This document shows, piece by piece, positions 26,660 to 56,320 of a DNA stretch of 64,000 nt. The notes under the pieces were generated by a model. That model was given only the letters and a program-made list of their open reading frames with translations. It searched no databases and was not told the DNA's origin. The position numbers and the translations under genes were made by a program. Origin of the DNA: Draconibacterium mangrovi (lineage in GTDB: Bacteria > Bacteroidota > Bacteroidia > Bacteroidales > Prolixibacteraceae); assembly GCF_010586825.1 (NCBI RefSeq), contig NZ_JAAAGB010000006.1, forward strand, positions 248,001 to 312,000, read 5' to 3'. Numbering within the stretch: the first letter of the stretch is position 1; every line of letters begins with the position of its first letter.

Positions 26660-26916
26660 TCCCTGGGGTTGAAAGTCTTCCAACTCTGGTTGATTGCTTG
26701 CCTACATTAGTTGGAGGCTTGCCAACTTAGGTTGATTTCTTATCAACCTAAGATGATTATATATCAACCATGGTTGATTGCCTGCCAACCATAGTTGATA
26801 GCCTTCCATCCTAAGTAAATTCCATGACAACCTTAGTTGGTTGCTTTCCAACCAAGGTTGATTGCGAACCAACCAAAGTTGATTGAGAGTCAACCTTGGT
26901 ATGTGCCGCGTCATCC
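26660..26916. repeat. 21-bp-period tandem array 1 (core CAACCwwrGTTG)
   Basis: Eleven units in strict 21-bp register, starting at 26681, 26702, 26723, 26744, 26765, 26786, 26807, 26828, 26849, 26870 and 26891. A degenerate unit precedes them (26660) and a partial one (CATCC, 26912) follows. Each unit begins with a 12-base pseudo-palindromic core such as CAACCATGGTTG, and the next nine bases vary. Position 1 (C), position 4 (C) and position 9 (G) are invariant in the eleven. The array fills the gap between 26646 and the rfbB promoter. Open frames across it arise because 21 is a multiple of three. Confidence 0.9.
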
Positions 26917-26963
26917 TTTATCTTTTTCTTGTTGAAGTGTTTTTCTATATCTGGCGAAAAGTC

Positions 26964-26971
26964 TACTTTTG
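26964..26971 (+). promoter_or_regulatory. -7 promoter box of rfbB
   Basis: TACTTTTG is a perfect TAnnTTTG. It lies 20 bases before the rfbB ATG and 48 bases after the end of array 1. Confidence 0.65.
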
Positions 26972-26990
26972 ATTTTCAAAACAATTAAAG

Positions 26991-28046
26991 ATGAGCAAGA
27001 CAATACTTATAACTGGTGGAGCTGGTTTTATCGGATCTCACGTGGTTCGTTTATTTGTAAATAACTACCCCTATTACAAAATTGTAAACCTCGATAAACT
27101 AACCTATGCCGGTAATCTTAATAATTTAAAAGATATTGAAGACCAGCCCAATTACGAATTTGTAAAGGGCGATATTGTTGACAGTGAGTTTATTCAGCAA
27201 CTGTTTGAAGAACGTCAGTTCGACGGGGTGATTCACCTGGCTGCCGAATCGCATGTTGATCGTTCGATTTCGAACCCGACCGAGTTTGTTTTCACCAACG
27301 TTATTGGCACGGTTAATTTGCTGAATGCTGCAAAACATATCTGGAAGGATAATTTTGAAGGCAAACGTTTCTACCACATTTCAACCGATGAGGTTTACGG
27401 CTCGTTGGGCGAGGAAGGAATGTTTACCGAAAAAACAGCTTACGATCCGCACAGTCCGTACTCGGCATCAAAGGCCAGTTCCGATCATTTTGTACGTGCC
27501 TATAACGATACTTTTGGTGTGCCGGCGGTAATTTCTAACTGCTCGAATAACTATGGTTCGTTTCAGTTTCCCGAAAAATTGATTCCGCTTTTTATTCACA
27601 ACATTAAAAACAGCAAACCGCTGCCGGTTTACGGTAAAGGTGAAAACGTGCGCGACTGGCTTTGGGTGGTTGATCATGCCCGCGCCATCGATGTAATTTA
27701 CCATAAAGGCGTAACTGGCGAAACCTACAATATTGGTGGTTTTAACGAATGGACCAACATTGACCTGATTCGGGTAATGTGCCGCAAAATGGATGAAAAG
27801 CTGGGCCGTCCTGAAGGCGAATCGGAAAAACTGATCACTTATGTGAAAGACCGCGCCGGGCACGATTTACGATACGCTATTGATGCCACAAAGATTAAAA
27901 ACGAACTGGGCTGGGAGCCATCGCTACAGTTTGAAGAAGGTATTGAGCGTACCATCGACTGGTACCTCGAAAATACCGCGTGGCTCGAGAATGTAACTTC
28001 GGGCGACTACCAGAAATACTACGAGCAGCAGTATGTAAAAAGATAA
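26991..28046 (+). CDS. rfbB: dTDP-glucose 4,6-dehydratase
   Basis: Second step of dTDP-L-rhamnose and related sugar synthesis, for surface glycans. It has 351 residues. The NAD motif is GGAGFIGSH (9-17), the dehydratase signature STDEVYG has Thr132, Asp133 and Glu134, and the catalytic pair is Tyr157-x3-Lys161 in PYSASKAS. The sugar-binding GENVRDWLWV follows. No rfbA, rfbC or rfbD is adjacent, so the pathway genes are scattered or the product feeds another sugar. The gene has its own promoter and two terminators in tandem. Confidence 0.96.
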   Translation: MSKTILITGGAGFIGSHVVRLFVNNYPYYKIVNLDKLTYAGNLNNLKDIEDQPNYEFVKGDIVDSEFIQQLFEERQFDGVIHLAAESHVDRSISNPTEFVFTNVIGTVNLLNAAKHIWKDNFEGKRFYHISTDEVYGSLGEEGMFTEKTAYDPHSPYSASKASSDHFVRAYNDTFGVPAVISNCSNNYGSFQFPEKLIPLFIHNIKNSKPLPVYGKGENVRDWLWVVDHARAIDVIYHKGVTGETYNIGGFNEWTNIDLIRVMCRKMDEKLGRPEGESEKLITYVKDRAGHDLRYAIDATKIKNELGWEPSLQFEEGIERTIDWYLENTAWLENVTSGDYQKYYEQQYVKR

Positions 28047-28058
28047 TTTAAACCAACC

Positions 28059-28098
28059 AGTGATACGATCACTCCGGGTGATAGTATCACTAATTTTT
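28059..28098 (+). terminator. First terminator of rfbB
   Basis: A long hairpin, AGTGATAC.GATCAC / GTGATA.GTATCACT around TCCGG (28059-28091), is followed by AATTTTT. The stem also splits into two perfect small palindromes, AGTGATACGATCACT and GTGATAGTATCAC. Confidence 0.75.
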
Positions 28099-28104
28099 CA
28101 TAAA

Positions 28105-28148
28105 AAAACAGAAAAGGAGATACAACAATGTGTCTCCTTTTCTGTTTT
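28105..28148. terminator. Second, bidirectional-looking terminator of rfbB
   Basis: A perfect 16-bp stem, AAAACAGAAAAGGAGA (28105-28120) / TCTCCTTTTCTGTTTT (28133-28148). It is T-rich on the 3' side and A-rich on the 5' side. Confidence 0.8.
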
Positions 28149-28222
28149 AGAAATGATTATTGTAACTTGTACGAACACAAAAATTCCGTTCTCAAAAACA
28201 AACAAAATTTAAAAGAATAAAC

Positions 28223-28693
28223 ATGAAACAAACATTTCTATTGCTGGCGCTTGTGGCTTTATTGGCGGCGTGCACCACTACAAAACAAGTAAGGAGTTCG
28301 CAGAAAGGTTTAAAAGGCAACTGGACATTGTCGTCGATTACAACCGACCAGGGAAACAAAGTGGAAATTAAAGAGCTGTTTAACCAGGCATCGCCCGATT
28401 GTTTCGAGGGTAGCGAATGGACCTTCGTTAGCAATAACAATTCCGGCACCTACTCGTTTATGGACGTGGCCTGCGTGAACTCCACCCATTCGATTAAATG
28501 GTTTATGGAAGAAGATGGCCAGGACATTTACTTTTTATGGAAATTTATTCCCGATGGAGTGAAGCCAAAAGATGTAACTGCCGGTTATAAGCTTAAATTA
28601 ATTTCTGAATCGGAGACCGAATTTGTTTTGGCACAGGATGCTTCGTTCGAGGGCAGCATCATTTCAATTTATTATCAATTCGTAAAAAATTAA
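28223..28693 (+). CDS. Lipocalin-like lipoprotein
   Basis: Lipoprotein of 156 residues. The signal peptide MKQTFLLLALVALLAAC is followed by an N-terminal Cys17. The mature part resembles lipocalin-like domains of Bacteroidota: LKGNWTLSSI at the start of the barrel, then alternating strands such as SEWTFVSNNNSGTYSF and a late YYQFVKN. The ligand is unknown. An OmpA-type lipoprotein gene starts 10 bases after its stop, so both are probably on one transcript and in the outer membrane. Confidence 0.85.
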   Translation: MKQTFLLLALVALLAACTTTKQVRSSQKGLKGNWTLSSITTDQGNKVEIKELFNQASPDCFEGSEWTFVSNNNSGTYSFMDVACVNSTHSIKWFMEEDGQDIYFLWKFIPDGVKPKDVTAGYKLKLISESETEFVLAQDASFEGSIISIYYQFVKN

Positions 28694-28703
28694 GATCACA
28701 GTT

Positions 28704-29390
28704 ATGAAGAATAAAACATTATTGGTACTTGTCCTTTTTGTGGCAGGAATACTTTTGAATAGTTGCAGCTCGTTGCAAAATGCCAACAGCTCGCAAAAAG
28801 GTGCAGGAATCGGTGTAGCTGCTGGAGCTGCTTTAGGTGCCTTAATTGGCGGAAAAGATAACCGTGCGGCAGGCGCTTTAGTTGGTGCTGCCGTTGGTGG
28901 TGGTGCCGGTGCAATTATTGGTAAACAAATGGATAAACAGGCCGAAGAAATTGAAACAACAATGCCCGGTGCCGAGGTGGTTCGCAGCGAAGAAGGAATT
29001 CAGTTAATTCTGGATGAAAATGCTGATGTGCGTTTTGGTTTTGATAGTTCTGATCTTACAGCTGATTCAAAGGCAAATGTTGGCAAACTGGTTGAGATAT
29101 TTAATAAATACCCGGATACCGATATTCTGGTAATTGGGCATACCGACAGCGACGGTGCCGAAACGTACAATCAAACCTTATCGGAAAAGCGTGCGGCATC
29201 GGTTGTTAGTTTCCTCAAATCAAATGGGATTGTGGCTTCGCGTTTGAGTTCGGTAGGAATGGGCGAATCGCAACCACGGGCAACCAACGATACCAAAGAG
29301 GGAAAAGCTCAAAACCGCAGGGTAGAGTTTACCATTACGGCTAACGAAGACATGGTAGATGCTGCAAAAGCACAGGCTGGCGAGAATTAA
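28704..29390 (+). CDS. OmpA-family lipoprotein with glycine zipper
   Basis: Outer-membrane lipoprotein of 228 residues. The signal peptide ends LLNSC. A glycine-zipper region (about 33-72, GVAAGAALGALIGG and GALVGAAVGGGAGAIIG) probably inserts in the membrane. A C-terminal OmpA domain (about 105-215) carries the peptidoglycan-binding pattern VIGHTDSDGAETYNQTLSEK and later QNRRVEF. It should tether the outer membrane to the cell wall. It follows the lipocalin-like gene by 10 bases. Confidence 0.92.
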   Translation: MKNKTLLVLVLFVAGILLNSCSSLQNANSSQKGAGIGVAAGAALGALIGGKDNRAAGALVGAAVGGGAGAIIGKQMDKQAEEIETTMPGAEVVRSEEGIQLILDENADVRFGFDSSDLTADSKANVGKLVEIFNKYPDTDILVIGHTDSDGAETYNQTLSEKRAASVVSFLKSNGIVASRLSSVGMGESQPRATNDTKEGKAQNRRVEFTITANEDMVDAAKAQAGEN

Positions 29391-29479
29391 TTTTGGTGTC
29401 GTTTTCTGAGTTCAGATGTTAAGAAATGAAACGACTATGAAAATTGTATTGCAAAAGTTTCAGGAACAGAAATTTATAC

Positions 29480-29487
29480 TATCTTTG
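29480..29487 (+). promoter_or_regulatory. -7 promoter box of rpsP
   Basis: TATCTTTG is a perfect TAnnTTTG. TTTC (29458-29461) lies 18 bases upstream as a possible -33 element. The leader is about 27 bases. Confidence 0.65.
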
Positions 29488-29519
29488 CGCCACATTTTTC
29501 AAAATTTAAAAATAGAATT

Positions 29520-30143
29520 ATGCCAGTAAAAATGAGATTAGCGCGACACGGTCGCAAACGCTACGCATACTACCACATTGTAGTAGCTGATAGCAGGGCG
29601 CCACGAGATGGCAGGTACATTGAAAGAATTGGCACGTACAATCCTAACACTGATCCTGCTACTATCGATCTCGATTTTGACAAAGCTTACGACTGGCTTG
29701 TTAAAGGCGCACAACCAACCGACACTGTAAGAGCAATTTTGTCTTACAAAGGTGTATTGTACAAAAAACACCTGATGGGTGGAGTTAAAAAAGGAGCTTT
29801 CGATGAAGCTGAAGCTGAAAAACGTTTAGAAAGCTGGATTGCAGCAAAGGATGCTAAAATTCAGGCAAAAATCGACCGTTTGGCCGGTGATGCCGCTGCA
29901 GAAGCTGAAAAACAACTGGACGCTGAGAAGAAAGTCAACGAAGAAAGAGCTGCCGCTATTGCTGCAAGAGAAGCAGAATTAGCCGCTGAAGTTGCCGCTG
30001 CCGCTGCTGCTGAAAAAGCAGAAGCAGAAGCAGAAGTAGCTGAAGAGGAAGAAGTAGTTGCTGAAGTTGAAGAAACTCCTGAAGCTGAAGCACCTGCTGT
30101 TGAAGAGGAAGCTTCGGAAGAAGAAAAAGGTGCGGAATCTTAA
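29520..30143 (+). CDS. rpsP: Ribosomal protein bS16 with long acidic C-terminal extension
   Basis: Small-subunit ribosomal protein. Residues 1-80 are the conserved bS16 core ([34 protein letters not shown]). The remaining 127 residues are an Ala/Glu/Lys-rich tail: a helical part to about 165, then a strongly acidic end ([20 protein letters not shown]). The core is of normal size, so the tail more than doubles the protein. Such extensions occur in Bacteroidota. It has its own promoter and terminator. rimM, usually in the same operon elsewhere, follows 346 bases on with a separate promoter. Confidence 0.96.
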
Positions 30144-30170
30144 GAAAGACAACTCATCTTATTATAGAAA

Positions 30171-30202
30171 ACCATCCGTCGGCTGACGGATGGTTTTTTT
30201 TT
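30171..30202 (+). terminator. Terminator of rpsP
   Basis: Stem ACCATCCGTC (30171-30180) / GACGGATGGT (30185-30194) with GGCT loop and nine T. Confidence 0.9.
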
Positions 30203-30489
30203 GAAAGTACAATAACAATTTATAGCAAAATCTGCTTCAAAATTTGTAGACTCACCCTGATTGTGCCTTCGACACAATCGTCCCACTCTTCGGGAGAAGA
30301 GAGGGAATGAGGGAGAGTTCGCTGAAAATTTGCATTGCTTTCATCACAGTTGTTGATTCACAGGAATCACGATTGTTTTTTGTGTTTATAGTCTTCGTTT
30401 CACCTCTTTCGAAAAAAATTATGTTGCAAATTTTTGGAACTTTCTACTTATAACTACCGTTTCAAGTGAAAATGCTTTACTTTTGAAGT
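30203..30489. repeat. rpsP-rimM intergenic region with family C repeat
   Basis: No gene is supported. The stretch 30294-30350, containing AGAGAGGGAATGAG and later CTTTCATCA, recurs in diverged form near 32411-32465 after the GIN-domain gene. CACCCTGATTGTGCC followed by the hairpin GATTGTG..CACAATC lies just upstream. The rimM -7 box is at the end. Confidence 0.5.
30478..30485 (+). promoter_or_regulatory. -7 promoter box of rimM
   Basis: TACTTTTG is a perfect TAnnTTTG that ends only four bases before the rimM ATG, so the transcript may be leaderless. Confidence 0.6.
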
Positions 30490-31017
30490 ATGGAAACGAT
30501 ACCAAAAACCGATTGCCAAAAAGTTGGATTCTTCAGAAAAACGCATGGCGTGCATGGCGAAGTAGTCCTGGAGTTTGACGAACAGTTTGAATATTCAGTG
30601 GAAGATAGCGACCGCTTTTTTGTCGAACTTGATGGTTTGCTCGTTCCTTTTTTCATTGAACAAGATGGTTTCCGATTCCGTTCATCCAAAACGGCAATTG
30701 TAAAGTTTGATTGGGTTGACGACGAAAAATACGCCAAACGCCTGATCGGAGCCAGTGCCTACCTGTTTCATTCCGAGATTATTGATGAGCAGGAAGAAAA
30801 CGAATCGATGTTTGAAGGCCTGATGTTAATTGACAGCAAACTAGGCGAAATTGGCATAATCGATCAAGTTGATGACTACTCAGGAAATATTGTTTTTACG
30901 GTTTCGTACAGGGGCGAGGAGTTGTTAATCCCGTTTCACGAAGAGATGTTGGTTTCATATAGCGAAAATGAAAGTACGCTAACCTTAAACTTACCCGACG
31001 GACTGATCGACGTTTAA
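30490..31017 (+). CDS. rimM: 16S rRNA processing/ribosome maturation factor RimM
   Basis: Assists assembly of the 30S head domain around bS19. It has 175 residues. The N-terminal barrel (about 1-95) starts with CQKVGFFRKTHGVHGEV, the usual RimM G-x(5)-GxxGE element. A C-terminal PRC-barrel (about 100-172) contains LGEIGIIDQVDDYSGNIV and ends LNLPDGLIDV. The gene lies after rpsP as in many bacteria, but with a separate promoter. Its 3' end overlaps the convergent thioesterase gene by 27 bases. Confidence 0.93.
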   Translation: METIPKTDCQKVGFFRKTHGVHGEVVLEFDEQFEYSVEDSDRFFVELDGLLVPFFIEQDGFRFRSSKTAIVKFDWVDDEKYAKRLIGASAYLFHSEIIDEQEENESMFEGLMLIDSKLGEIGIIDQVDDYSGNIVFTVSYRGEELLIPFHEEMLVSYSENESTLTLNLPDGLIDV

Positions 31018-31425
31018 GTCAGGCTCAAAATCTGCAAATTTCTTTCTCCAAACATCCGGGATCGGTTCCGAAACCCTGGCTTTCATATCAAAACAAACCA
31101 TTACCGATTTACATATTGCCACCGGCTCTGTACTGTCTTGTTTGTATACAGCTTGTGTCATCTCAAGGCTTTTTTCACCCAATGATGACACCGAAGTAAG
31201 CACATGGATGGTATCCTCAAGAAAGGTTGGTTGCATGTAATCTACTTTTACCGAGGCAATTATCAATCCTTTGTGTGTCCAGCTAATAAGGTCGCCTAAA
31301 ACTGTTCCGAAATATTTTAGACGGGCCAGATCAAAAAATTCCTGGTATTTGGCATTGTAAACATGGCCCATCAGGTCGATGTCGTTAAACCGGATCTGTA
31401 CCGGTACACTATGTTCCTGTTTCAT
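30991..31425 (-). CDS. Acyl-CoA thioesterase (4HBT, hotdog fold)
   Basis: Cytoplasmic thioesterase of 144 residues. It has the family start VQIRFNDIDLMGHVYNAKYQEFFDLARLKYF. The Asp of FNDIDLMGHVYN corresponds to the catalytic Asp of 4-hydroxybenzoyl-CoA thioesterases. The acyl substrate is not evident. The gene is convergent with rimM and shares 27 bases with it. Confidence 0.88.
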   Translation of the reverse strand: MKQEHSVPVQIRFNDIDLMGHVYNAKYQEFFDLARLKYFGTVLGDLISWTHKGLIIASVKVDYMQPTFLEDTIHVLTSVSSLGEKSLEMTQAVYKQDSTEPVAICKSVMVCFDMKARVSEPIPDVWRKKFADFEPDLNVDQSVG

Positions 31426-31612
31426 AAAATGCTTGCTTTATGAATTTAAAAGTGCAATTATTTTGTTGCGTGTGCAACTTTATTCCAATTGTCGCGTCAT
31501 TAAAACGTAATAATAATATTGGCCGGAAAGATCATTGGAATTAGCCAATTATATGCACCAATTTTATTCCGGGTATTGAAAAATAAGAATTAGAAATTTA
31601 AATAGTAAAAGC

Positions 31613-32317
31613 ATGAAAACCAGAATTTTAGTATTGAGCCTTTTTGTAATGGGTCTATTTATGGCCTCAACCGTTCAGGCCGAAGAAGAAACACGTGATG
31701 TGTCAAGTTTCTCGGAGATCAGTTTGCGAATTCCGGCAACTGTACATCTACAGCAGGGTAGTCCGCAAAGTGTACGGATAGAAGCAAAGCAGTCGACTCT
31801 TGAAGAAATAATTACCGAAGTAAACGGAAGTAAATTGATAATTCGTTTTCCGGGAAAAAGCATTTTTCAGCGCAATTACAAACCCGGCAGAATAGATATT
31901 TATATCACTGTGCCGGATGTAAATGGATTGGGTGTTTCGGGCTCGGGAGATATTTTAGCCGATGAGATTAAAGCACGAATTATCGACCTGGCTGTTAGTG
32001 GCAGCGGAAATATTGAAATTGAAGACCTGACATCTGATAAAGTAAAAGGAGCCATCTCAGGATCGGGTAATATTCAAATTGAAAGCGATGGAGTTGCCGA
32101 TGAACTTTCTGTTTCAATTTCGGGATCAGGTAACTTTAAAGCCGATGGATTTGAAGCCAAAGATGTAACTGTTAGTACGTCAGGATCGGGCAATTGTAAT
32201 GTTCGATCAAACGGTTCGCTAAAAGCACGAATCGCCGGATCGGGAAGTGTATATTACAAAGGCAATCCCAGAGTTGATGCGTCGGTAGCCGGCTCAGGCA
32301 GAGTAAAAAGTATGTAA
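31613..32317 (+). CDS. GIN-domain (DUF2807) secreted protein
   Basis: Exported protein of 234 residues. The signal peptide is about residues 1-23 (ending TVQA). The rest is a DUF2807 (GIN, putative auto-transporter adhesin head) domain. It shows the repeating Gly-Ser-Gly turns of a right-handed beta-solenoid: VSGSGDI, VSGSGNIEI, ISGSGNIQI, ISGSGNFK, TSGSGNCN, IAGSGSVYY and VAGSGRVKS. Function is unknown; surface attachment is often proposed. It has its own terminator. Confidence 0.92.
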   Translation: MKTRILVLSLFVMGLFMASTVQAEEETRDVSSFSEISLRIPATVHLQQGSPQSVRIEAKQSTLEEIITEVNGSKLIIRFPGKSIFQRNYKPGRIDIYITVPDVNGLGVSGSGDILADEIKARIIDLAVSGSGNIEIEDLTSDKVKGAISGSGNIQIESDGVADELSVSISGSGNFKADGFEAKDVTVSTSGSGNCNVRSNGSLKARIAGSGSVYYKGNPRVDASVAGSGRVKSM

Positions 32318-32340
32318 TCTAAGTGGATTAAAAATATTAC

Positions 32341-32371
32341 AGGCCATCTGTTTATCAGGTGGCCTTTTTTT
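32341..32371 (+). terminator. Terminator of the GIN-domain gene
   Basis: Stem AGGCCA-CTG (32341-32350) / CAG-TGGCCT (32356-32365) with a seven-T run. Confidence 0.85.
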
Positions 32372-32495
32372 CTGAAAGTCCATCAAAAGATATCTTCGCA
32401 AATCTAAGGTTCTCAAAGAGAGGGAATGAGAGAGAGCTAGCTGAAAGTTTGTAATACTTTCATCATTGTTGGTAACTCCCGTGAATATGTATGTT

Positions 32496-33059: not shown

Positions 33060-33083
33060 GTAATATACTTTTTTCTTTCATTT

Positions 33084-33162
33084 GACCCCCTATCTTCGCT
33101 TCGTTTCGATTGTCTCCGTCAGCTGACGGAGGACAGGCGCTTTGAAGAAGCGACAGAGGGGA
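33084..33162. repeat. Palindromic repeat, family E copy 1
   Basis: The arms ACCCCCTATCTTCGCTTCG and GAAGAAGCGACAGAGGGG enclose the perfect 18-bp palindrome CTCCGTCAGCTGACGGAG (33114-33131). The arms match those of the copy at 41589-41663, but the central palindrome differs. Confidence 0.7.
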
Positions 33163-33173
33163 ATCTGAATCCC

Positions 33174-44478: not shown

Positions 44479-44799
44479 GATGGCTGAACCCCAATCCCTA
44501 ACCACATAAGGCACATAGACCACATTAGATTTTGCCTATTGCTGTTTGCCAATTGTCAATTCTTTCACCAGTTTTTTTCCCTTTTGCCTTGTATCCTGAA
44601 CCACATCAGGCACATAGAATACATTCGGTTTTGCTCTCTGTGGCACTCCGTGTCTTCTTTGTGTTATCTCTGTGGTTTATTTTTTTTCAAAGACACGAAG
44701 GTGACATTTGCCTACCGGCGTTTGCCATTTGCCTACTCCTTCTAAAATCTTCAATCGTTAATCATCATTCTATAATCATCTTTATTAAAGGGGGTACTT

Positions 44800-45177
44800 C
44801 CGAAGGTGTCGATCGACCTTCCGAAGCTATCCGTTGACCTTCCGAAGGTATCCTTTCTGCTTCCGAAGCTGAACGTCTGTGTTCCGAAGGTCGAGCTCCG
44901 GCTTCAAAAGTTAAAATTTGTGCTTCAGAAGGTATCGATCCGACTTCAAAAGTTAAAATTTGAGCTTCCGAAGGTGTCACTCCGGCTTCAGAAGCTCAAG
45001 TTCGGGCTTCCGAAGGTATCAATTTGAGTTCCGAAGCTATTGTTTGAGCTTCCGAAGGTATAATTAATACTTCCGAAGGTATCCTTTTAGCTTCAGAAGC
45101 TATAATTAATACCTCGGAACTTAAAGTCAGAGCCTGCGATCCTTAAGGGATGAGCTCCGAAAATCTAACTTCAGCTG
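44800..45177. repeat. 21-bp-period tandem array 2 (core CTTCCGAAG)
   Basis: Sixteen good units start every 21 bases from 44800 to 45115, and two degenerate units follow (45136 and 45157), with no indel. The conserved part spans the unit junction: ..CTT then CCGAAG(G/C)T, with CAGAAG and CAAAAG variants. The remaining ten or so bases vary. Units tend to alternate between CGAAGG and CGAAGC or AAAAGT. Units starting at 44905 and 44947 differ at one base only. The array ends about 99 bases before the -7-like box of the next gene. Confidence 0.92.
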
Positions 45178-45253
45178 AATTTTTGGATATTCCTGTTAAT
45201 TTGTTTCTCGCAAAGAGTGTTAAATAAACTTCTTCAAAGGATAGATTTGTCAC

Positions 45254-45283
45254 TTTGTGGTTATTACAATTTAAATATCTTTA
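45254..45283 (+). promoter_or_regulatory. Promoter of the DUF5916 gene
   Basis: TTTG (45254-45257), an 18-base spacer and TATCTTTA (45276-45283, seven of eight) match the Bacteroidota -33/-7 pattern. The box lies downstream of the upstream in-frame start at 45217, so the start at 45325 is preferred. Confidence 0.6.
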
Positions 45284-45324
45284 CAGGCAATTTATTATAC
45301 CTAAATCAATTAAAGCTGTTTCTT

Positions 45325-47499
45325 ATGAAGTTGCCTTTGGTCTTATTTCTCTGTGTATGTTTGGCATATACTGCTGTTGCCAACAATTATAGCTCAAAAT
45401 CGGATACAACGATAAATACCTTCAATAAAGCCTATGTTTATCGCGTAAAGAAATTGCAGGGGCTAATAAATATTGATGGTGTAATTGATGAAAGCGACTG
45501 GCAAAGCGCGCAAAAAGCAGATAAATTTTACCGGGTGCTACCTGTTGATACCGGTTTTGCCACGCAGCCTTCAACAATGATGATGGCATACGACGACAAA
45601 GCCTTGTACGTAGCACAAATATTTTACGATACTATTCCCGGCGATCGTGTGATGGAATCGTTCCGCCGTGATTTTAGCTTTGGAAATAACGATAACCTGC
45701 TCATATTTTTCGATACATTTTTGGATCAGACAAACGGTTTTTCATTTGGAGTTTCGGCCTCGGGAGCCAAGTGGGACGGAACCATGAGTAACGGACACAG
45801 TATTTCGTTGGATTGGGATTGCAAATGGGAGATGAAAACCAAACATTACGACAACCGATGGGTAAGCGAAATGCGTATTCCGTTTAAATCGGTTCGGTAT
45901 CCGAAAGGTAGCAAAGAGTGGAACGTAAACTTTAGCCGATTGGATTTGAAATCGAACGAAAAGTCGGCATGGGCGCCTGTGCCAAGGCAGTTTCCAACGG
46001 CATCGCTGGCTTACACCGGACGTATGCAGTTTGAAGAGCCACTGCCAAAATCAAAAATGCAGTTTTCAGTAATTCCTTATTTATTGGGTGGCGCATCAAA
46101 AGATTTTGAGGCCGGCACAAGTACCGATTACCGTACCGATGTTGGTTTTGATGCCAAAGTTGGTATCTCGTCATCGATGACACTCGACCTGACGTATAAT
46201 CCCGATTTTGCGCAGGTTGAAGTTGATCAGCAGGTAACCAATATTGATCGTTTCGAATTGTTCTTCCCCGAAAAACGACAGTTCTTCCTCGAGAACAGCG
46301 ACCTTTTTTCAAGTTATGGATACTCGCATACTTTAACTCCGTTTTTCTCGCGCCGTATTGGTTTGGATGCGCCGGTACTTGCCGGGGCCCGATTGAGTGG
46401 GAAAATTGGCAAAGACTGGCGGGTAGGTTTTATGAATATGGCCACCGAAGAAACCAGCGAAAACCTGGCCCGGAATTTTACTGTGGCTTCCGTTCAGAAG
46501 AAAATGTTTACGCGGTCGAGCCTTGGATTTATTGCCGTTAACAAAGAATATTTTGATGAACCATCGGACACCAGCATGTTTAACCGCGTGATTGGTTTCG
46601 ACTATAACCTGGCCAGCAAAGACAATGTGTGGGATGGTAAGTTCTTTTACCACCGCTCGTTTCAACCCGATAATCCCGATAAACAATATGCACAGGGAGC
46701 CATGTTAAATTACAGCACTCCGCATCTACACCTGGGGATTTATGAAACTTCGGTTGGCGAAAATTACCGTGCCGAGGCCGGCTATGTGCGCCGAACAGGA
46801 TATAACTTTATTGGTGCATCGGCCGGTTATACTTTTGTGCCCAATAGAAAAGTGGTAAATCACGGGCCGAGTATAAAACTTGATAACTATTTCAATCCTG
46901 ATAAGGATTTGATTGAACATGAGTATGAGTTCGAATATGAGTTAACCTTTGCAAACCGGGCAGAACTGAGTTTTGGTTATGCCGATCATTTTGTGCAACT
47001 ACGAAACGATTTTAACCCAACACAGGATCCTGACAATTATTTACCCGAAGGTTCGGAATATGATTTTGGACTTTTTTCTGTTAAGTACCAGTCAACACGT
47101 AAATCGTTGTTTACCTGGGAAGCCGAGGCCTCAAAAGGCAGTTTCTATAGTGGCGACATTCAGTACATACAGGGAGAAATTGGTTACCGCTTTCAACCCT
47201 ATGTAAACCTTACCATGAATTTTAACTACACCGATATGGATTTGGGTGATCCGTTCAACCGCGAAAAGTTTTGGCTGGTGGGCCCGAAAATGGATATCAC
47301 TTTCACCGATAAAATATTCTGGTCGACTTTTGTGCAGTACAACGAACAAATCGACAATCTGAATATCAACTCTCGCTTTCAGTGGCGTTATCAACCGGTT
47401 TCGGATATTTACCTGGTTTACACCGACAACTATTTTACCGGCAACTGGAACTCGAGAAACAGGGCAGTGGTTTTAAAAATGACTTACTGGTTTAATTAG
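45325..47499 (+). CDS. DUF5916 outer-membrane protein with CBM9-like N-terminal domain
   Basis: Exported protein of 724 residues. The signal peptide is about residues 1-19 (MKLPLVLFLCVCLAYTAVA). A carbohydrate-binding family 9-like beta-sandwich (about 40-235) has INIDGVIDESDWQSA at its start. The rest is the DUF5916 region, predicted to be a beta-barrel. It contains LTYNPDFAQVEVDQQVTNID, then FFPEKRQFFLENSDLF, and ends with the outer-membrane-type C-terminal aromatic LKMTYWFN. Function is unknown; sugar or polymer handling at the surface is suggested by the N-terminal domain. The start was set by the promoter and signal peptide. Confidence 0.88.
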   Translation: MKLPLVLFLCVCLAYTAVANNYSSKSDTTINTFNKAYVYRVKKLQGLINIDGVIDESDWQSAQKADKFYRVLPVDTGFATQPSTMMMAYDDKALYVAQIFYDTIPGDRVMESFRRDFSFGNNDNLLIFFDTFLDQTNGFSFGVSASGAKWDGTMSNGHSISLDWDCKWEMKTKHYDNRWVSEMRIPFKSVRYPKGSKEWNVNFSRLDLKSNEKSAWAPVPRQFPTASLAYTGRMQFEEPLPKSKMQFSVIPYLLGGASKDFEAGTSTDYRTDVGFDAKVGISSSMTLDLTYNPDFAQVEVDQQVTNIDRFELFFPEKRQFFLENSDLFSSYGYSHTLTPFFSRRIGLDAPVLAGARLSGKIGKDWRVGFMNMATEETSENLARNFTVASVQKKMFTRSSLGFIAVNKEYFDEPSDTSMFNRVIGFDYNLASKDNVWDGKFFYHRSFQPDNPDKQYAQGAMLNYSTPHLHLGIYETSVGENYRAEAGYVRRTGYNFIGASAGYTFVPNRKVVNHGPSIKLDNYFNPDKDLIEHEYEFEYELTFANRAELSFGYADHFVQLRNDFNPTQDPDNYLPEGSEYDFGLFSVKYQSTRKSLFTWEAEASKGSFYSGDIQYIQGEIGYRFQPYVNLTMNFNYTDMDLGDPFNREKFWLVGPKMDITFTDKIFWSTFVQYNEQIDNLNINSRFQWRYQPVSDIYLVYTDNYFTGNWNSRNRAVVLKMTYWFN

Positions 47500-48670: not shown

Positions 48671-48696
48671 TTCGAAAGATTAAAAACAGCATACAG

Positions 48697-49598: not shown

Positions 49599-49630
49599 AT
49601 AATCCGGATCTTAAAGGATTACGCATGGAG

Positions 49631-50227: not shown

Positions 50228-50260
50228 GATATATAAGTTTTTATCTGGTTTGGGTAATAC

Positions 50261-51775
50261 TTAATCGCTGTTCGAAACAAATGCAATCTTCTTGCTGTCG
50301 GGCGACCAGCTAGGAACATTTATCGATCCCTGTCCGCCGTAAATGTAGGCTATAATTCGCGGTTGGCCACCTTCGTATGGCATTAAGCGAATCAGACAAT
50401 GTTTGTAAAACGGATGATCAGCAGGATCAATATCTTCAGGAAATGAAATGAATACGATCCACTTTTTGTCCGGGCTTACATGCGGGAACCAGTCGTTGTA
50501 TTTGTCGTCGGTCAGCTGAACCTGATTTTTGCCATCAGCATCCATTCGCCACAATTGCATTTTTCCGCTTCTGGTTGAATTGAAGAAAATGTATTTCCCA
50601 TCGGGGCTGTATTCCGGTCCGTCATCAAGCGTTTTTTCGTTGGTCAGTTGTGTTTCTTCGCCAGTGGCAACATCAACACCGAAAATATCGTATTGGCCGT
50701 TTCGTTCGCCGGTAAAGACCATCGTTTTTTTATCGGGCGACCACCCATGAAAATACGAAGCGCCAAGTCCTGTTTTTGTAACTCTAACGGGAGTAGAATC
50801 GCCTTTTGCAGGCAAATAATAAATGGTGGAACTTCCGTTGTTATCGACGCTGTGGTGCGAAATGCCCAGCAAACCTCCATCGAAAGTTAAAACATGGTCG
50901 TTGTTGTTATTGGTAGCAAATCCGGTATTCAACGGTTTGATTTCGCCGATAGCCAGTTTGTAGGTGAATAAATGCCCTTTTGAATTGTAGATCAGCTTTT
51001 CATTATCAGGCGTCCAGTTAGGTGCCTGAATCGAATGTGCCGAATGGTGGATCACTTTGCGCAATCCGCTTTCAATATCCAGTATTTCAAGGTTGCTTCC
51101 AATGTAATCCCGGTAAGGTACATAGTCTTCTTTCTCGGGACGAATAATGCGTACATTCCGGTAAACTGCACTTTCCATAACATCGGCATTGTGTGCACAA
51201 ACATAAATTCCCACATAAACTTCGTTATCCAGCGGCAGGTTATCGAGTTGAACCACTTTAAAAGGCTCGCCAAACTTAGCTGTCGACATAATAAAAGAGG
51301 AGCCTTTTCTTTCCAGCTGAATTACATCCGGCGCCTGATCTTCCGATTTTACTTCTTCTGTATCTGCTCCTGCAGTTTTCCTGTATTGTAACGATGTAAG
51401 CCCATCGCCATGAACGGTTGCATTTGCATGTGGCGAATTGCTGTCGAGATTATTCCGAACCATCCAACCAACTTTGCGGTGCGGATCAACGCCATCGCCC
51501 AAAAGTTTTACTTCGGCGCGCAAAATAAAATCGCCCTGAAGTGTTGTCCACAAGTAATGAAACTGGTCGTCGGCAAACCACATGTTAAATCCCGATCCAC
51601 CGATTGTGTATGTTTGGTCGATTGCATTAAACGAAGCAAAACCCTGGTGTTTGCAGGCTCCAATATCGGTGTGGTTATCGAAAATACCCAGTTTGTTTTG
51701 TGCCGATGTAAAATTCATAATGATTAATAAGAAGGAAAGTACAGTAAATAAACGAATGAAAGCAGATTTGATCAT
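50261..51775 (-). CDS. Exported TolB-like beta-propeller protein with N-terminal lectin-type domain
   Basis: Exported protein of 504 residues. The signal peptide is about residues 1-25 (ending FTSA). A DUF1349/concanavalin-like beta-sandwich spans about 28-215 (GFNMWFADDQFHYLWTTLQG and VGWMVRNNLD). The C-terminal half is a WD40-like TolB propeller with repeated PD40 motifs: APNWTPDNEKLIYNS, HGWSPDKKTMVFTGE, PEYSPDGKYIFFNS, PHVSPDKKWIVFIS and PSWSPDSKKIAFVS. It probably binds carbohydrate or protein in the periplasm. It leads a two-gene unit with the lipoprotein downstream. Confidence 0.88.
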   Translation of the reverse strand: MIKSAFIRLFTVLSFLLIIMNFTSAQNKLGIFDNHTDIGACKHQGFASFNAIDQTYTIGGSGFNMWFADDQFHYLWTTLQGDFILRAEVKLLGDGVDPHRKVGWMVRNNLDSNSPHANATVHGDGLTSLQYRKTAGADTEEVKSEDQAPDVIQLERKGSSFIMSTAKFGEPFKVVQLDNLPLDNEVYVGIYVCAHNADVMESAVYRNVRIIRPEKEDYVPYRDYIGSNLEILDIESGLRKVIHHSAHSIQAPNWTPDNEKLIYNSKGHLFTYKLAIGEIKPLNTGFATNNNNDHVLTFDGGLLGISHHSVDNNGSSTIYYLPAKGDSTPVRVTKTGLGASYFHGWSPDKKTMVFTGERNGQYDIFGVDVATGEETQLTNEKTLDDGPEYSPDGKYIFFNSTRSGKMQLWRMDADGKNQVQLTDDKYNDWFPHVSPDKKWIVFISFPEDIDPADHPFYKHCLIRLMPYEGGQPRIIAYIYGGQGSINVPSWSPDSKKIAFVSNSD

Positions 51776-51879
51776 GACGTTTTAATTTAGTTGGTTAGTG
51801 TTGCAAGGCCAGTAAAATTAAGGAGTTTTCATTCAACTCAAAGAATGTTGGGCCTATTGTTGAACATATTCTGCAAATA

Positions 51880-52305
51880 TTAGTTTCGTCTGTAATATTC
51901 AATTCGTGTTGCCGGAACAATCTCATCGCGATAAAATGCCAGCGATTCTGATTCAAATTGATCTTCGTCCCAGTCAAAGTCTTCCAGAAATTCATTTCCG
52001 GCCATCCAAACAAAAGCTATAGCATCAATAATTCCGGAACTTGTTTCAACTTTAACCGGTGCCATCCCATAATCATCCCCTTCGTAGAAAGTCAGCAGGT
52101 AAATCGCATTTTCATCGAGGTTAAGTAGAACTTTCCCTTTTACTGTTGAGTTATTTTTTTTGATAATTGCCGGGTAATCGGCCTCTTTTAACGCAAAGCG
52201 TGAGTAACCATTTAAAGTTGCTTCTTCCGATTTTAACTTTTCCCCGCACAAACCCTCAGCAATTTCAGGAAATAACAGTGAACCATATACAAATACATTC
52301 ATCAT
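51880..52305 (-). CDS. Gamma-glutamylcyclotransferase-like (AIG2/GGCT fold) protein
   Basis: Cytoplasmic protein of 141 residues. The substrate loop FVYGSLLFPEI is at 4-14 (family signature YGSL), and the catalytic-type Glu sits in LTFYEGDDYG near residue 75. The fold acts on gamma-glutamyl amines or peptides, but substrates differ widely. No operon partner is seen. Two adjacent ATG codons at the start make the exact first residue uncertain by one. Confidence 0.88.
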   Translation of the reverse strand: MMNVFVYGSLLFPEIAEGLCGEKLKSEEATLNGYSRFALKEADYPAIIKKNNSTVKGKVLLNLDENAIYLLTFYEGDDYGMAPVKVETSSGIIDAIAFVWMAGNEFLEDFDWDEDQFESESLAFYRDEIVPATRIEYYRRN

Positions 52306-52351
52306 AAATTGTTGGCGTTAAACCAAATACTTCAAAATAACCGCTGTCGTT

Positions 52352-52382
52352 TTTGGAAAGCTGGACTATTTCGGTATATTTG
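52352..52382 (+). promoter_or_regulatory. Canonical Bacteroidota promoter of the 52472 gene
   Basis: TTTG (52352-52355), a 19-base spacer and TATATTTG (52375-52382). Both elements are perfect. This is the clearest full promoter in the window. Confidence 0.7.
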
Positions 52383-52401
52383 CTCCGCTTAAAAATAGGG
52401 T

Positions 52402-52428
52402 GAAAAAACTTGTGTAAAAAGTTTTTTC
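52402..52428 (+). promoter_or_regulatory. Leader hairpin with T-run (possible attenuator)
   Basis: Perfect stem GAAAAAACTT (52402-52411) / AAGTTTTTTC (52419-52428). It lies between the promoter and the ATG at 52472, so it is transcribed as leader. The six T residues are in the 3' arm, so its strength as a terminator is uncertain. Confidence 0.4.
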
Positions 52429-52471
52429 GGTAACAAATATTTTAAGTAGTTGCAGACGAGAAGTTTAAAGT

Positions 52472-52879
52472 ATGATTTCTAAAATAAAAATAACCAGAAG
52501 AATTGTAGTTCGTTTGGCCATGTTTATGGCAATTATTGCGGCTGCCTTGGTTTTGGATAATTATTTTGGGAATAATCCTGAGGAGGTTAAAAAGATTCAG
52601 GCTGAATCGCAGGAGCAGAGTAATGAGCAGGGTGCTGTTTACCTGATTGCTCAAACCTCTACAAATACAATAAAAACCTTCGAAGATCGTGTGTATTCAA
52701 AGCATACGAAACCTCAGTTGCACGACAAATTCTTACGCAATTATCACTCTATTCGCAATTACCAGGTTTTTAAAGCAGAGCTTGTTAAACAAACCACTCC
52801 GCTTATCTCATCCTATCATTACCTGGTTTTTCAAAATCACGTCTTTTCCCCCGAAGAAGACTCCGTAGCTTTATCGTAA
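52472..52879 (+). CDS. Hypothetical membrane-anchored protein
   Basis: Unrecognised 135-residue protein. A basic start (MISKIKITRRIVVR) is followed by one membrane helix (about 15-31, LAMFMAIIAAALVLDNYF). The rest is polar and probably periplasmic, with no motif I know. There is no lipobox or obvious cleavage site, so it is probably a signal-anchored protein. It lies 102 bases upstream of secDF on the same strand and might be co-transcribed with it, which would suggest an envelope role. The promoter is canonical and the leader carries a hairpin. Confidence 0.72.
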   Translation: MISKIKITRRIVVRLAMFMAIIAAALVLDNYFGNNPEEVKKIQAESQEQSNEQGAVYLIAQTSTNTIKTFEDRVYSKHTKPQLHDKFLRNYHSIRNYQVFKAELVKQTTPLISSYHYLVFQNHVFSPEEDSVALS

Positions 52880-52981
52880 TTCTTTTATCTGTTTAAAAGA
52901 ATATCAGGTGCAATGTATACCTGAATGAACTTGAATTCAATCAAATAAAAAATATCAATAAACATTTAAATTCAAATTAAA

Positions 52982-55978
52982 ATGCAAAACAAAGGTGCAA
53001 TTTTAACATTTGCAATTCTGTTGGCAGCGGTATGTTTTTACCAACTATCATTTACCTGGGTATCGAACAAGGTAAAAGATGATGCCATTGAATATGCACA
53101 AGGTGATGAAATGAAAGAGTTTCAATACCTTGATTCAATGAAAAGTGAAGTGGTTTACAACTTCCTTGGATTGAAAAAATTTACGTACAAAGATGTTCAG
53201 GAGCTGGAAATAAACCTGGGTCTTGACCTTAAAGGTGGTATGAACGTAACACTTCAGGTTGAAGTGCAGGATATCATCCGTGCGATGTCGAATTACAGCG
53301 ATGATGAAACATTCAACGCCGCTTTGGCACTGGCAACGAAAAACCAGCAAAACAGTACAAAAGACTACGTAACACTGTTTGGCGAGGCTTTCGAAGAAAT
53401 TGATCCGAATGCTCGACTGGCTTCAGTTTTCAATACTTTGGAACTTCGCGATCAGGTAAACTTTAACACCAGCAACGCTGATGTATTAAAAATAATCAAA
53501 GAGCAAACTGAGGCTGCTATCGCCAATGCTTTTAATATCATCCGTACGCGTATCGACCGTTTTGGTGTAGCGCAACCAAATATTCAAAACCTGCAAACAA
53601 GCGGTAGAATTTTGGTTGAATTACCGGGTGTAAAAGATCAGAACCGTGTGCGTAGCCTGTTGCAGGGAACTGCAAACCTTGAGTTCTGGGAAACTTACGA
53701 AAACCAGGAAGTTTATCAATACATGCTTCAAGCCAACGAGCGCATTAAAGAAATGCAAGTGCTTGAATCAGAAAAAAGCGGCAAAGAAGCTACTGCTGAT
53801 ACAACAACAGAAACTACTGCTGACGACACTGAAGAGAACTCTTTACTTTCGGAACTGGAAGCCGGTGCAGCCGGTGACACAACAGCAACACCTGATAACT
53901 TATCCGCTTTTAAAGAGCAGTATCCACTGTTTGCTATTTTGAATCCAAGTACCGATCAAAATGGTCAGCTATACGGTGGCCCGATTGTAGGTATTGCACA
54001 TGCAAAAGATACAGCACAGATTAATACATATCTTCATAATGCACAAATCAAAAGTGTATTCCCACGCGATATGATATTTGCGTGGACAGCCAAGTCGATG
54101 GATGAAGCTGGTAATTTTTACCGTTTAATTGCATTAAAAGTTACTACCCGCGACGGAAAAGCACCTCTTGATGGTGGTGTAATTACCGATGCTCGTCAGG
54201 ACTTCGACCAATTTGGTTCAAACCCTGAAGTAGCAATGCAAATGAATGCTGAAGGTGCAAAAGTTTGGCAACGTATGACCAAAGAAAACGTTGGTAAATC
54301 AATTGCAATTGTTCTTGATGGTTATGTTCGTTCATTCCCAAATGTAAATGGCGAGATTCCAGGAGGTCGTTCAAGCATCAGCGGTTTGGAAAGTATTGAA
54401 GAGGCACAAGACCTTGCAAACGTACTGAAGTCGGGTAAAATGCCGGCTCCTGCACGTATCATTCAGGAAGACATTGTTGGTCCTTCACTGGGTCAGAAAG
54501 CAATTAACAGCGGTTTACTTTCATTTGTAATCGCTTTTGCGCTAGTGCTTGTTTACATGTTGTTCTTCTACAGTAAAAATGCAGGTTTGGCTGCAAACGT
54601 CGCACTGGTTGCCAACATGTTCTTTATTTTCGGTATTCTTGCTTCGTTAGGTGCAGTACTAACACTGCCTGGTATTGCAGGTATTGTACTTACAATCGGT
54701 ATGTCGGTTGATGCTAACGTGCTGATTTACGAACGTATTCAGGAAGAAATGCGCGCCGGTAAAGGTGTGAAACTGGCCATTGCCGATGGTTATAAAAATG
54801 CTTACTCAGCAATTATCGACGGTCAGGTTACTACATTATTAACCGGTATCGTACTTTACCTGTTTGGTTCAGGTCCGATCAAAGGTTTTGCTACAACGCT
54901 GATCATTGGTATTCTTACCTCACTGTTCTCTGCAATTTTCTTAACCCGTTTGATTTTCGAATGGCAATTGAAAAAAGGTGGCCGCATCTTGTTTGCTTCT
55001 ACAGCAACAGAAGGTTGGTTGCGTAACATGAAAATTAAATTCCTCGAGAAAAGAAAAATGTTCTACGTTATTTCAGGCGTATTCATTGTTCTCTCAATTG
55101 GTTCGTTCTTTGTTCGCGGCTTGAATTACGGTATCGACTTTAAAGGTGGTCGTTCGTACATCATCGAATTCCAGAAAGATGTTGAAGTAGGAGAAGTTCG
55201 TGCAGCACTGGCCGATGTGTTCGGAACAGCGCCGGAAGTAAAAACTTCAGGGGAAGACATTAAAATTACTACCGACTATAAAATTGACGACCATAGCGAA
55301 AACATCGATAACGAAGTTGAAGCGTTGTTAATGAAAGGTTTGCAGGATGCCGACCTGATCGACAAAACAGTATCTCTTGAAGAATTTACTCAGGATTATC
55401 AGCAGAGTTCGCAAAAAGTTGGTCCTACTATTTCAGATGATATCCGTAAGGATGCAGCTATTGCAATCGCTTTCTCGCTGATCATTATCTTCCTTTATAT
55501 TCTGGTTCGTTTCCGCGACTGGCAATATGGTTTGGGAGCAGTTGCTGCATTGGCACACGACTCGTTAATTGTATTGGGTATCTTCTCATTACTATCAGGA
55601 GTACTGCCATTCTCCCTGGAGATCGACCAGGCGTTTATCGCGGCTATTCTTACCGTGGTGGGTTATTCGATTAACGACACCGTGGTTGTATTCGACCGTA
55701 TCAGGGAATATCTGGGCTTGCACCCAAAACGCGACATTGTTGAAAACGTAGATGATGCACTGAACAGCACACTGCGTCGTACCTTTAGTACATCGCTGTC
55801 AACTTTTGTGGTATTGTTAGCTATCTTCTTATTCGGAGGAGCTACCATTCGCGGCTTTACGTTTGCCTTGTTGGTGGGTGTGGTTGTAGGTACCTACTCG
55901 TCGATATTTATTGCAACACCAATTGCTTACGATACACGTAACCGTGTAGCCAAAGTAGTTGCAAAACGTAAAAAATAA
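52982..55978 (+). CDS. secDF: Protein translocase SecDF fusion
   Basis: Proton-driven accessory of the Sec translocon, of 998 residues. The N-terminal SecD half (about 1-660) has a first helix, LGLDLKGGMNVTLQV, the periplasmic P1 region and six-helix membrane part with DANVLIYERIQEEMRAGKG. The SecF half (about 685-998) starts FYVISGVFIVLSIGSF, has NYGIDFKGGRSYI and ends with helices containing SINDTVVVFDRIRE. The fused order is usual in Bacteroidota. A Thr/Glu-rich low-complexity insert near 265-310 lies in the periplasmic part. Terminator and array 3 follow. Confidence 0.97.
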   Translation: MQNKGAILTFAILLAAVCFYQLSFTWVSNKVKDDAIEYAQGDEMKEFQYLDSMKSEVVYNFLGLKKFTYKDVQELEINLGLDLKGGMNVTLQVEVQDIIRAMSNYSDDETFNAALALATKNQQNSTKDYVTLFGEAFEEIDPNARLASVFNTLELRDQVNFNTSNADVLKIIKEQTEAAIANAFNIIRTRIDRFGVAQPNIQNLQTSGRILVELPGVKDQNRVRSLLQGTANLEFWETYENQEVYQYMLQANERIKEMQVLESEKSGKEATADTTTETTADDTEENSLLSELEAGAAGDTTATPDNLSAFKEQYPLFAILNPSTDQNGQLYGGPIVGIAHAKDTAQINTYLHNAQIKSVFPRDMIFAWTAKSMDEAGNFYRLIALKVTTRDGKAPLDGGVITDARQDFDQFGSNPEVAMQMNAEGAKVWQRMTKENVGKSIAIVLDGYVRSFPNVNGEIPGGRSSISGLESIEEAQDLANVLKSGKMPAPARIIQEDIVGPSLGQKAINSGLLSFVIAFALVLVYMLFFYSKNAGLAANVALVANMFFIFGILASLGAVLTLPGIAGIVLTIGMSVDANVLIYERIQEEMRAGKGVKLAIADGYKNAYSAIIDGQVTTLLTGIVLYLFGSGPIKGFATTLIIGILTSLFSAIFLTRLIFEWQLKKGGRILFASTATEGWLRNMKIKFLEKRKMFYVISGVFIVLSIGSFFVRGLNYGIDFKGGRSYIIEFQKDVEVGEVRAALADVFGTAPEVKTSGEDIKITTDYKIDDHSENIDNEVEALLMKGLQDADLIDKTVSLEEFTQDYQQSSQKVGPTISDDIRKDAAIAIAFSLIIIFLYILVRFRDWQYGLGAVAALAHDSLIVLGIFSLLSGVLPFSLEIDQAFIAAILTVVGYSINDTVVVFDRIREYLGLHPKRDIVENVDDALNSTLRRTFSTSLSTFVVLLAIFLFGGATIRGFTFALLVGVVVGTYSSIFIATPIAYDTRNRVAKVVAKRKK

Positions 55979-56026
55979 TTTGAAGATCGAAGTCAGAAGT
56001 CGGAAGACGGAAGACTAAATTTATAC

Positions 56027-56067
56027 AAAGGATGTCATCGCTTAATTGGGGTGACATCCTTTTTTTG
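56027..56067 (+). terminator. Terminator of secDF
   Basis: Perfect 11-bp stem AAAGGATGTCA (56027-56037) / TGACATCCTTT (56052-56062), then T residues. Confidence 0.9.
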
Positions 56068-56152
56068 TGATTAATGTGTGAGTTTATTTCATTAAAAGCG
56101 ATTAAACGAGCAAAAAAAGTGTTTATCACTGTCGTTTTGTAAAATCTCTCCG

Positions 56153-56320
56153 GTGATAACCGACACTTCGTATCGGAGAACATACTTTTTATGGGTGATA
56201 AGACCCTTTGGGCAAGTGATAAGGCATCTTTTACGGTTGATAAGCCTTTTCTGGCAGGAGATAAGAGCCGGGAGCCGGGTGATAATTGGCTAAAATGTAG
56301 TGATAACAGGAAAATGCGGA
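56153..56320. repeat. 21-bp-period tandem array 3 (core GTGATAA)
   Basis: Eight units start at 56153, 56174, 56195, 56216, 56237, 56258, 56279 and 56300, in exact register. Five begin with a perfect GTGATAA; 56237 (TTGATAA) and 56258 (GAGATAA) vary by one base, and 56174 is degenerate (CGGAGAAC). The other 14 bases vary. An inverted core, TTTATCAC, lies just upstream at 56122-56129. The array ends 140 bases before the tatA promoter box. Confidence 0.85.

Follow-up and report, generated by a model that had tools for sequence, protein, structure and literature searches.

Why should three intergenic tandem arrays with different cores, found within one 64,000-nt stretch of the 5.9-Mb Draconibacterium mangrovi genome (G000, contig C24:248001-312000; hereafter the window), all repeat at exactly 21 bp? 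Arrays of this kind, with periods of 21 or 40 to 42 bp, keep their phase, conserve their cores beyond the intervening filler, in many cases lie beside genes of three small-protein families (a 106-amino-acid [106-aa] family, DUF6261, and a ~160-aa family), and in some cases share cores between gene-linked copies and orphan copies elsewhere. Together, the arrays and their partner genes look like an undescribed kind of protein-and-address system. The reading preferred here, which is tentative and in our judgment falls a little short of an even chance, is that they may serve as addresses in duplex DNA that the partner protein, or a complex containing it, reads.

Phase and core conservation of the window arrays

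The window arrays were laid out in 21-bp rows for unit counting. Array 1 (26681..26911) contains 11 full units with a palindromic core, CAACCNNGGTTG, which appears in the unit rows as CAACCNNGGTTGAT, and its edges are degenerate on both sides. Array 2 (44797..45174) contains 18 units with the core CTTCNGAAG, written out as the pattern CTTCNGAAGnT, and array 3 (56153..56320) contains 8 units with the core GTGATAA, a single one of which, at 56174, is degenerate. Row reading revealed no indel inside any of them. The lag-21 identity was 0.60, 0.53, and 0.44 for arrays 1, 2, and 3, respectively, versus only 0.13 to 0.38 at lags 15 to 20 and 22 to 29, which bears out the original prediction that the three arrays are real and hold an exact phase over 8 to 18 units.

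Column conservation was uneven beyond that expected from even drift (P = 0.005, <0.0001, and 0.034 for arrays 1, 2, and 3, respectively). Between-species identity was 95.8% for core versus 79.5% for filler in a five-species comparison and 93.3% versus 74.4% in a three-species comparison, with core columns chosen by motif in one species, which somewhat favours the core. The cores are thereby conserved beyond the filler, as had been predicted. A coding repeat, in which 21 bp would equal 7 codons, was ruled out: periods of 20, 22, 40, and 41 bp are off-frame, and all six frames carry stops in arrays 1 and 2. Two frames are open in array 3, which is only 168 bp long. Mechanical open reading frames (ORFs) cross 21-bp arrays as heptad peptides at L349:1129-1491 (-) and L352:1225-1443 (+), and annotation pipelines may call such ORFs.

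Linkage of the arrays to three protein families

The original prediction proposed a search for a protein family whose presence follows the arrays, and three were found. Among 554 ORFs of the D. mangrovi genome taken as background, an array lay downstream of 24 and upstream of 19 (~4%); the corresponding numbers at periods of 23 to 39 and 44 to 47 bp were 4 and 6. Against this background, the link of the arrays to the three gene families is solid.

Array 1 directly follows a 106-aa family gene (26326..26646, + strand). The family was studied at 27 homologous loci from 14 genomes, with one gene truncated, and a 21- or 42-bp array occurred within 900 bp downstream of the gene at 20 of the 27 and upstream at none. 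The cores vary by clade, as judged by eye, and include CAACCNNGGTTG, TTACCNNGGTAA, GCCCCAAGGGG, AAGAT/ATCTT, and TATCCNNGGATA. A profile of the family matched 4 genomes, that of D. mangrovi included, in a 295-genome sample of the order, and an array follows the gene at all five loci of the other three (periods, 21 to 22 or 42 bp; z, 7.4 to 23.8). No relatives were found in viral_contigs. The array-1 core also occurs in the array of L018; that array sits just before a CobS gene, and the same stretch holds two cobalamin riboswitches (L018:6112-6305 and 9264-9481).

Two arrays in the sample of the D. mangrovi genome adjoined DUF6261 genes, and all six DUF6261 genes of this genome were then examined. 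Each has a 40- to 42-bp array directly upstream (6/6) with a core of its own, and none has one downstream (0/6). The genus sample took a single DUF6261 gene from each of 20 genomes, out of the 25 other genus genomes that have the family, and an upstream 40- to 42-bp array accompanies 15 of these 20 genes. In a phylum sample, DUF6261 was present in 11 of 395 genomes, D. mangrovi included; all 20 matches from the other 10 genomes were fetched, and upstream arrays were found at 11 of 20 with z of ≥8 and at 13 of 20 with z of ≥7, spread over 6 of the 10 genomes. L333 and L334, both among the 13, are near-copies, and it is uncertain where the genes start in L314, L332, and L346, with L314 and L332 scored as misses. 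A DUF6261 gene of Prevotella nigrescens (L360) has a 41-bp array too; its annotated start at 1839 falls inside the array, and the start was placed near 1977, with the protein match beginning at 2001. A plasmid search found one DUF6261. The sole mention of DUF6261 found in the literature accessible to us appears unrelated by its title.

The ~160-aa family was reached through the core of array 2, which recurs at G000:C23, at G000:C27, and in relatives, versus 0 to 1 occurrence of a control pattern per genome. At three of six array-2-core loci that were read (G000:C23, G049:C5, and G052), the array lies between two paralogous ~160-aa genes, and the other three (L350, L351, and L352) have no ~160-aa gene nearby. 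Array 2 itself, which has the same core as the array at G000:C23, is an orphan copy. The family is present in 27 of 395 phylum genomes, D. mangrovi included. Ten of the 40 matches outside D. mangrovi were fetched, one per genome and among the best E values, hence a nonrandom set; a phased array follows the gene within 500 bp in all 10 and lies upstream of it in none (0/10). Nine of these arrays have a period of 21 or 42 bp, and that of L367 has a period of 43 bp. Arrays of CTTCNGAAG with at least 8 pattern hits, gene-linked ones included, were found in 6 of the 7 genomes with a ~160-aa orthologue of ≥79% identity and in 0 of 30 genomes without one (Fisher's exact test, 3e-6). Orphan CTTCNGAAG arrays with >3 hits were found in 4 of the 7 (G000, G049, G051, and G052) and in 0 of the 30; the thresholds of both counts were set after the data were seen. 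A core common to the whole family was rejected, with CTTCNGAAG clearly shared by L370 alone among the 10 loci. Plasmids yielded no ~160-aa relative. A near-invariant element, in which a C- or G-rich run is flanked by two CTTCNGAAG words, was observed at G004:C6:753941, G043:C222:624881, G017:C55:90288, and G044:C127:8880, the copy in G004 following a ~160-aa gene at a distance of ~360 bp.

Linked and orphan arrays have cores in common in the 42-bp class as well. The orphan arrays L014, L090, and L079b match the DUF6261-linked cores L307, L303, and L308 of the same genome, with similarities of 0.82, 0.81, and 0.75, respectively. In comparisons between own and far cores, which served as the yardstick, 95% of values were ≤0.57 and the largest was 0.81.

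Distribution and turnover of the arrays

A column-profile scan covered 293 noncoding segments (117 kb) in an 827-kb sample (14%) of the D. mangrovi genome, consisting of long, nonrandomly chosen stretches, with one dinucleotide shuffle per segment as a control. Eleven segments passed at lag 21, 10 at lag 42, 4 at lag 41, 1 at lag 40, 1 at lag 20, and none at lag 22, and no shuffle passed at any lag. The excess of lag 21 over its neighbours, whose absence from a genome-wide scan would have refuted the original prediction, is therefore present in this sample. In total, 21 segments exceeded the threshold. The best period was 21 or 40 to 42 bp in 16 of them, including a period-7 word repeat at L014:2058, and 10, 13, 14, 15, and 24 bp in the remaining five. 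Fifteen arrays per 827 kb extrapolate to about a hundred arrays in the genome. Many of them carry different, often palindromic cores, and L083 and some others switch from direct to inverted orientation halfway along the array. An intergenic array of 13-bp period (L087:4933; z, 11.6) is unlike the rest.

In syntenic 40- to 60-kb blocks from 13 relatives and the window, most periods were 21 (14 segments), 42 (13), or 63 bp (7), and none of the shuffles exceeded the threshold. No array at 20 to 22 or 40 to 42 bp was detected in the blocks of G005, G008, G003, and G009, and 120 kb of G012 had no noncoding peak at lag 21 or 40 to 42.

At orthologous sites, arrays both persist and turn over. The core of array 1 is kept at its site in G000, G002, G012, G024, and G006. 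The core of array 2 is kept in G000 (18 units), G051 (18 to 20 units, by eye), and G008 (3 to 4 units, by eye; z, 4.7) and is absent from the corresponding site in G024, G002, G012, G006, G052, G005, and G013. The array-3 site, between secDF and tatA, holds GTGATAA arrays in G000, in G008, and, in decayed form, in G012 (z, 4.3), a CTGCGGA 21-bp array in five species (G024, G052, G003, G049, and G042), and a 41-bp array in G013. Neither a 21- nor a 41-bp array is present there in G002, G005, and G051 or in the more distant genus genomes with a readable gap. At this one orthologous site, related species hold three unrelated arrays or none. G006 has a different insert (L111) where other species have arrays, which, from a motif at its start, we take to begin like a group II intron.

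Whole units change between orthologues: G000 and G008 differ by one complete 21-bp unit, with G008 additionally lacking 1 bp. L085:1-310 consists of near-identical 42-bp copies, and L020:3900-4300 is a higher-order repeat of three diverged 41-bp units (3 by 41 bp). Judging from these two loci, arrays seem to grow by duplication of single and multiple units. The earlier view that slippage cannot account for the arrays holds in that core constraint goes beyond what slippage gives, with the qualification that arrays may still grow by it. Visual inspection of sites 2 and 3 showed no target-site duplication.

DNA or RNA

Of 71 linked arrays, some of them from related loci, 47 showed significant dyad symmetry (P ≤ 0.05). 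In the 21-bp class (27 entries, 281 units), the arms showed no compensatory change, with z values of -1.63 within the unit and -1.84 across the filler; array 1 was entered twice, and without the repeat, the values are about -1.5 and -1.9. Of the 29 gaps that separate a gene from its downstream array, 17 contained a terminator-like hairpin, versus 7.0 expected from shuffles; the 12 gaps without a hairpin include all four of the CAACC clade. Rfam gave no array match in the window, L010, L013, L014, and L018, where its only hits were two cobalamin riboswitches off the arrays, and a known structured RNA was rejected for these five stretches (L020 was left out). The lack of arm covariation, the terminator hairpins between gene and array, and the helical pitch favour a duplex-DNA element. 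Of the common mechanism that was first proposed for the arrays, either multivalent protein binding or a repeat RNA, the shared architecture, array-specific cores, and two-turn phasing are retained, and the repeat RNA is disfavoured for the 21-bp class.

The 106-aa and ~160-aa families had no significant match in Pfam, NCBIfam, or PHROGs, and DUF6261 matched only itself; PADLOC, like PHROGs, gave nothing significant. None of the three families matched a transposase or nuclease family, and a PDB sequence search revealed no credible relative.

Genes and other repeats around the window arrays

All three window arrays lie between co-directional genes and have a promoter downstream, as originally described; elsewhere in the sample, flanking genes may be co-directional, convergent, or divergent. 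A promoter element as a general rule was accordingly rejected, since arrays also occur between convergent genes. Downstream of array 1 is a nucleotide-sugar dehydratase-like gene (26991..28046, +), presumably rmlB-like from its motif ITGGAGFIGSH, at which the array is kept in four other species. Array 2 is followed by a DUF5916/CBM9-like gene (45217..47499, +) whose true start may be near 45325. The SecDF gene (52982..55978, +) lies 5' of the array-3 site and a TatA/B/E-family gene (56482..56754, +) lies 3' of array 3, and the inverted array-3 core, TTATCAC, occurs just 5' of the array (56123..56129).

Repeats of other kinds were also observed. Word-like repeats with a period of 7/14 that run in either orientation (e.g., GATTCTGGATACTT and GAAGTCGGAAGACGGAAG), occur at window positions 2252-2340, at L014:2164, and at both edges of site 3; they are another dispersed repeat kind and bracket the hypervariable array-3 site. 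A weak 24-bp array (15939-16060; z, 6.3) has a 24-bp counterpart of equal z at the corresponding place in G002.

Proposed mechanism and alternative explanations

In the proposed mechanism, each core would be a short, mostly two-fold symmetric site recurring every two (~21 bp) or four (40 to 42 bp) helical turns, which would place all sites of an array on one face of the DNA. Each array would be owned by the small protein encoded next to it: 106-aa and ~160-aa proteins would own 21-bp arrays downstream of their genes, and DUF6261 proteins (~240 aa) would own 40- to 42-bp arrays upstream of theirs. The partner, or a complex containing it, would read its own core along that face. Orphan arrays with the same core may bring other loci under the same protein, and paralogues and cores diverging jointly could yield many private protein-address pairs per genome. 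Binding, cooperativity, and effects on neighbouring genes or on chromosome structure are what we infer from this arrangement.

Several observations weigh against protein reading of the arrays. The partner proteins are acidic (median isoelectric points of 5.45, 5.01, and 5.34 for the three families) and have no recognised DNA-binding domain; the binding may therefore fall to a partner or adaptor. An hhalign comparison gave no support for a common ancestor of the 106-aa and DUF6261 families (probability, 0.3%). No array accompanies 7 of the 27 106-aa loci or 5 of 20 (genus) and 7 of 20 (phylum) DUF6261 genes; G024 retains a CAACC array without any 106-aa match, and G012 has a ~160-aa gene pair but no CTTCNGAAG match. 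Three of six 42-bp orphans (L013, L020, and L085) match none of the six DUF6261 cores of their genome, L079:3240 and L083 have no clear partner, and the array-3 core has none among the linked 21-bp arrays (best similarity, 0.51). The arrays are also not everywhere: a scan of 326 kb drawn from other families of the order (five genomes) showed no noncoding peak at lag 21 or 40 to 42, and in the 73 kb of noncoding DNA next to secDF in 80 related records, the sole noncoding 21-bp array was that of L173, a Draconibacterium record. The remaining 21- and 33-bp signals in those records resemble the small tatA reading frame. Gene-array linkage could also stem from co-inheritance rather than recognition. 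Finally, the orphan CTTCNGAAG array near position 1191 of L352 (G049:C7) lies ~0.6 kb from an ORF (1961-2600) for a LytTR response regulator, a rival DNA-binding reader, which slightly lowers confidence in protein reading by the partners and raises the case for ordinary regulators.

One alternative, which we consider unlikely, is a mobile or selfish satellite, in which gene plus array would be autonomous and orphans nonautonomous copies, comparable to repetitive extragenic palindromes (REPs) with their REP-associated tyrosine transposases (RAYTs) or to miniature inverted-repeat transposable elements (MITEs) with transposases, the core being kept because the mobilising machinery reads it. The replacement of one array by another, or by none, at site 3, the recurrence of cores at several loci, and the variation in DUF6261 gene number from 0 to 10 per genome are consistent with it; however, the three families lack transposase and nuclease matches, no target-site duplication was seen by eye at sites 2 and 3, and mobility requires neither helical phase nor a constraint confined to the core. 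Arrays of ordinary transcription-factor sites for diverse regulators (e.g., of the LytTR type), with the partner genes as mere neighbours or targets, would explain the dyad cores, the retention of array 1 5' of one rmlB-like gene in five species, and the regulator near L352. This appears quite unlikely given that two families have the array on the downstream side of the gene and never upstream, that arrays also occur between convergent genes, and that the same two pitches, with many different cores, recur next to the same three families. LytTR regulators appear not to be the general reader: none was among nine flanking or linked proteins, although one is encoded near the orphan array of L352.

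An RNA-level element, whose transcript would fold into repeated hairpins with core arms as stems and filler as loops and be bound by the partner, fits the adjacency of array and gene and certain 42-bp cores, such as CTTTCCGCnnnnGCGGAAAG, that could form hairpins, but the missing compensatory change in the 21-bp class, the excess of terminator-like hairpins between gene and array, and the Rfam result for the five stretches make it improbable. Neutral minisatellite decay following slippage would account for the whole-unit differences between orthologues and for the repeats of L085 and L020, yet it is contradicted by filler that is randomised while core and phase are kept, by periods that are mostly 21 and 40 to 42 bp, and by the linkage with three gene families, and is very improbable. 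A CRISPR array was also rejected, as core columns vary and filler is partly shared between units in arrays 1 and 2; no cas gene was found among the nine flanking or linked proteins and four further scanned proteins.

Relation to known repeat systems

The original prediction knew of no named feature class for the arrays, and none was found. Literature on 21-bp, palindromic, or minisatellite arrays in Bacteroidetes, as far as it was accessible and with few subscription journals covered, contained no description of such arrays. A RAYT is a Y1-type transposase gene that owns its palindrome type. REPs and REPINs are dispersed intergenic palindromes with RAYT genes (PMC3116915, PMC3733652), and REP palindromes carry a GTAG or CGTC tag at one end (PMC3733652). 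The present arrays resemble them in being dispersed intergenic palindromes with one gene owning a palindrome type but differ in being tandem at helical pitch, in having many cores per genome, and in having partners without a transposase match.

The closest known counterpart in the literature searched is BrickBuilt of Porphyromonas gingivalis, a minisatellite/MITE of 23-nt tandem units with 19 copies in ATCC 33277 and small inverted-repeat ends on its leader and tail subunits (PMC4596501). Like the present arrays, it is intergenic, tandem, and from Bacteroidota; in contrast, it is one sequence family with leader and tail subunits, and its abstract names no partner protein. TAACTGA heptamer arrays occur in Beggiatoaceae, Cyanobacteria, and Bacteroidetes, with repeat-binding proteins and a translational role proposed (PMC4679880). 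They are likewise intergenic short direct repeats forming long arrays in several Bacteroidetes and Cyanobacteria but consist of a single heptamer, and the abstract names no linked gene family. Two-turn spacing of sites on one helix face is shared with two further systems. In LytTR operators, 9-bp direct repeats are spaced about 21 bp from each other; iteron and partition-site arrays have two-turn site spacing on one helix face. The present genome differs from both in its many cores; no LytTR match was found among the nine proteins mentioned above, and one LytTR regulator is encoded near one orphan array.

Significance

The arrays are an unnamed class of noncoding DNA tied to three protein families without assigned function, across a major phylum that includes the human oral species Prevotella nigrescens. 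A wider reading, to which we give somewhat less than an even chance, is that protein-addressed DNA arrays are phylum-wide: many genes of the three families would each have next to them an array built from a dyad word of their own, with a pitch of two or four turns, orphans would spread the address to other loci, and protein and word would co-diversify. In the manner of bacterial satellites and their cognate binders, such private, possibly mutually blind systems could have a role in organising or regulating the chromosome. If the proteins do read the arrays, a large collection of naturally occurring protein-address pairs would become available, and with it a direct way to learn what DUF6261 does. 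The arrays also offer a bacterial parallel to satellites, in which the sequence changes fast and the architecture is kept.
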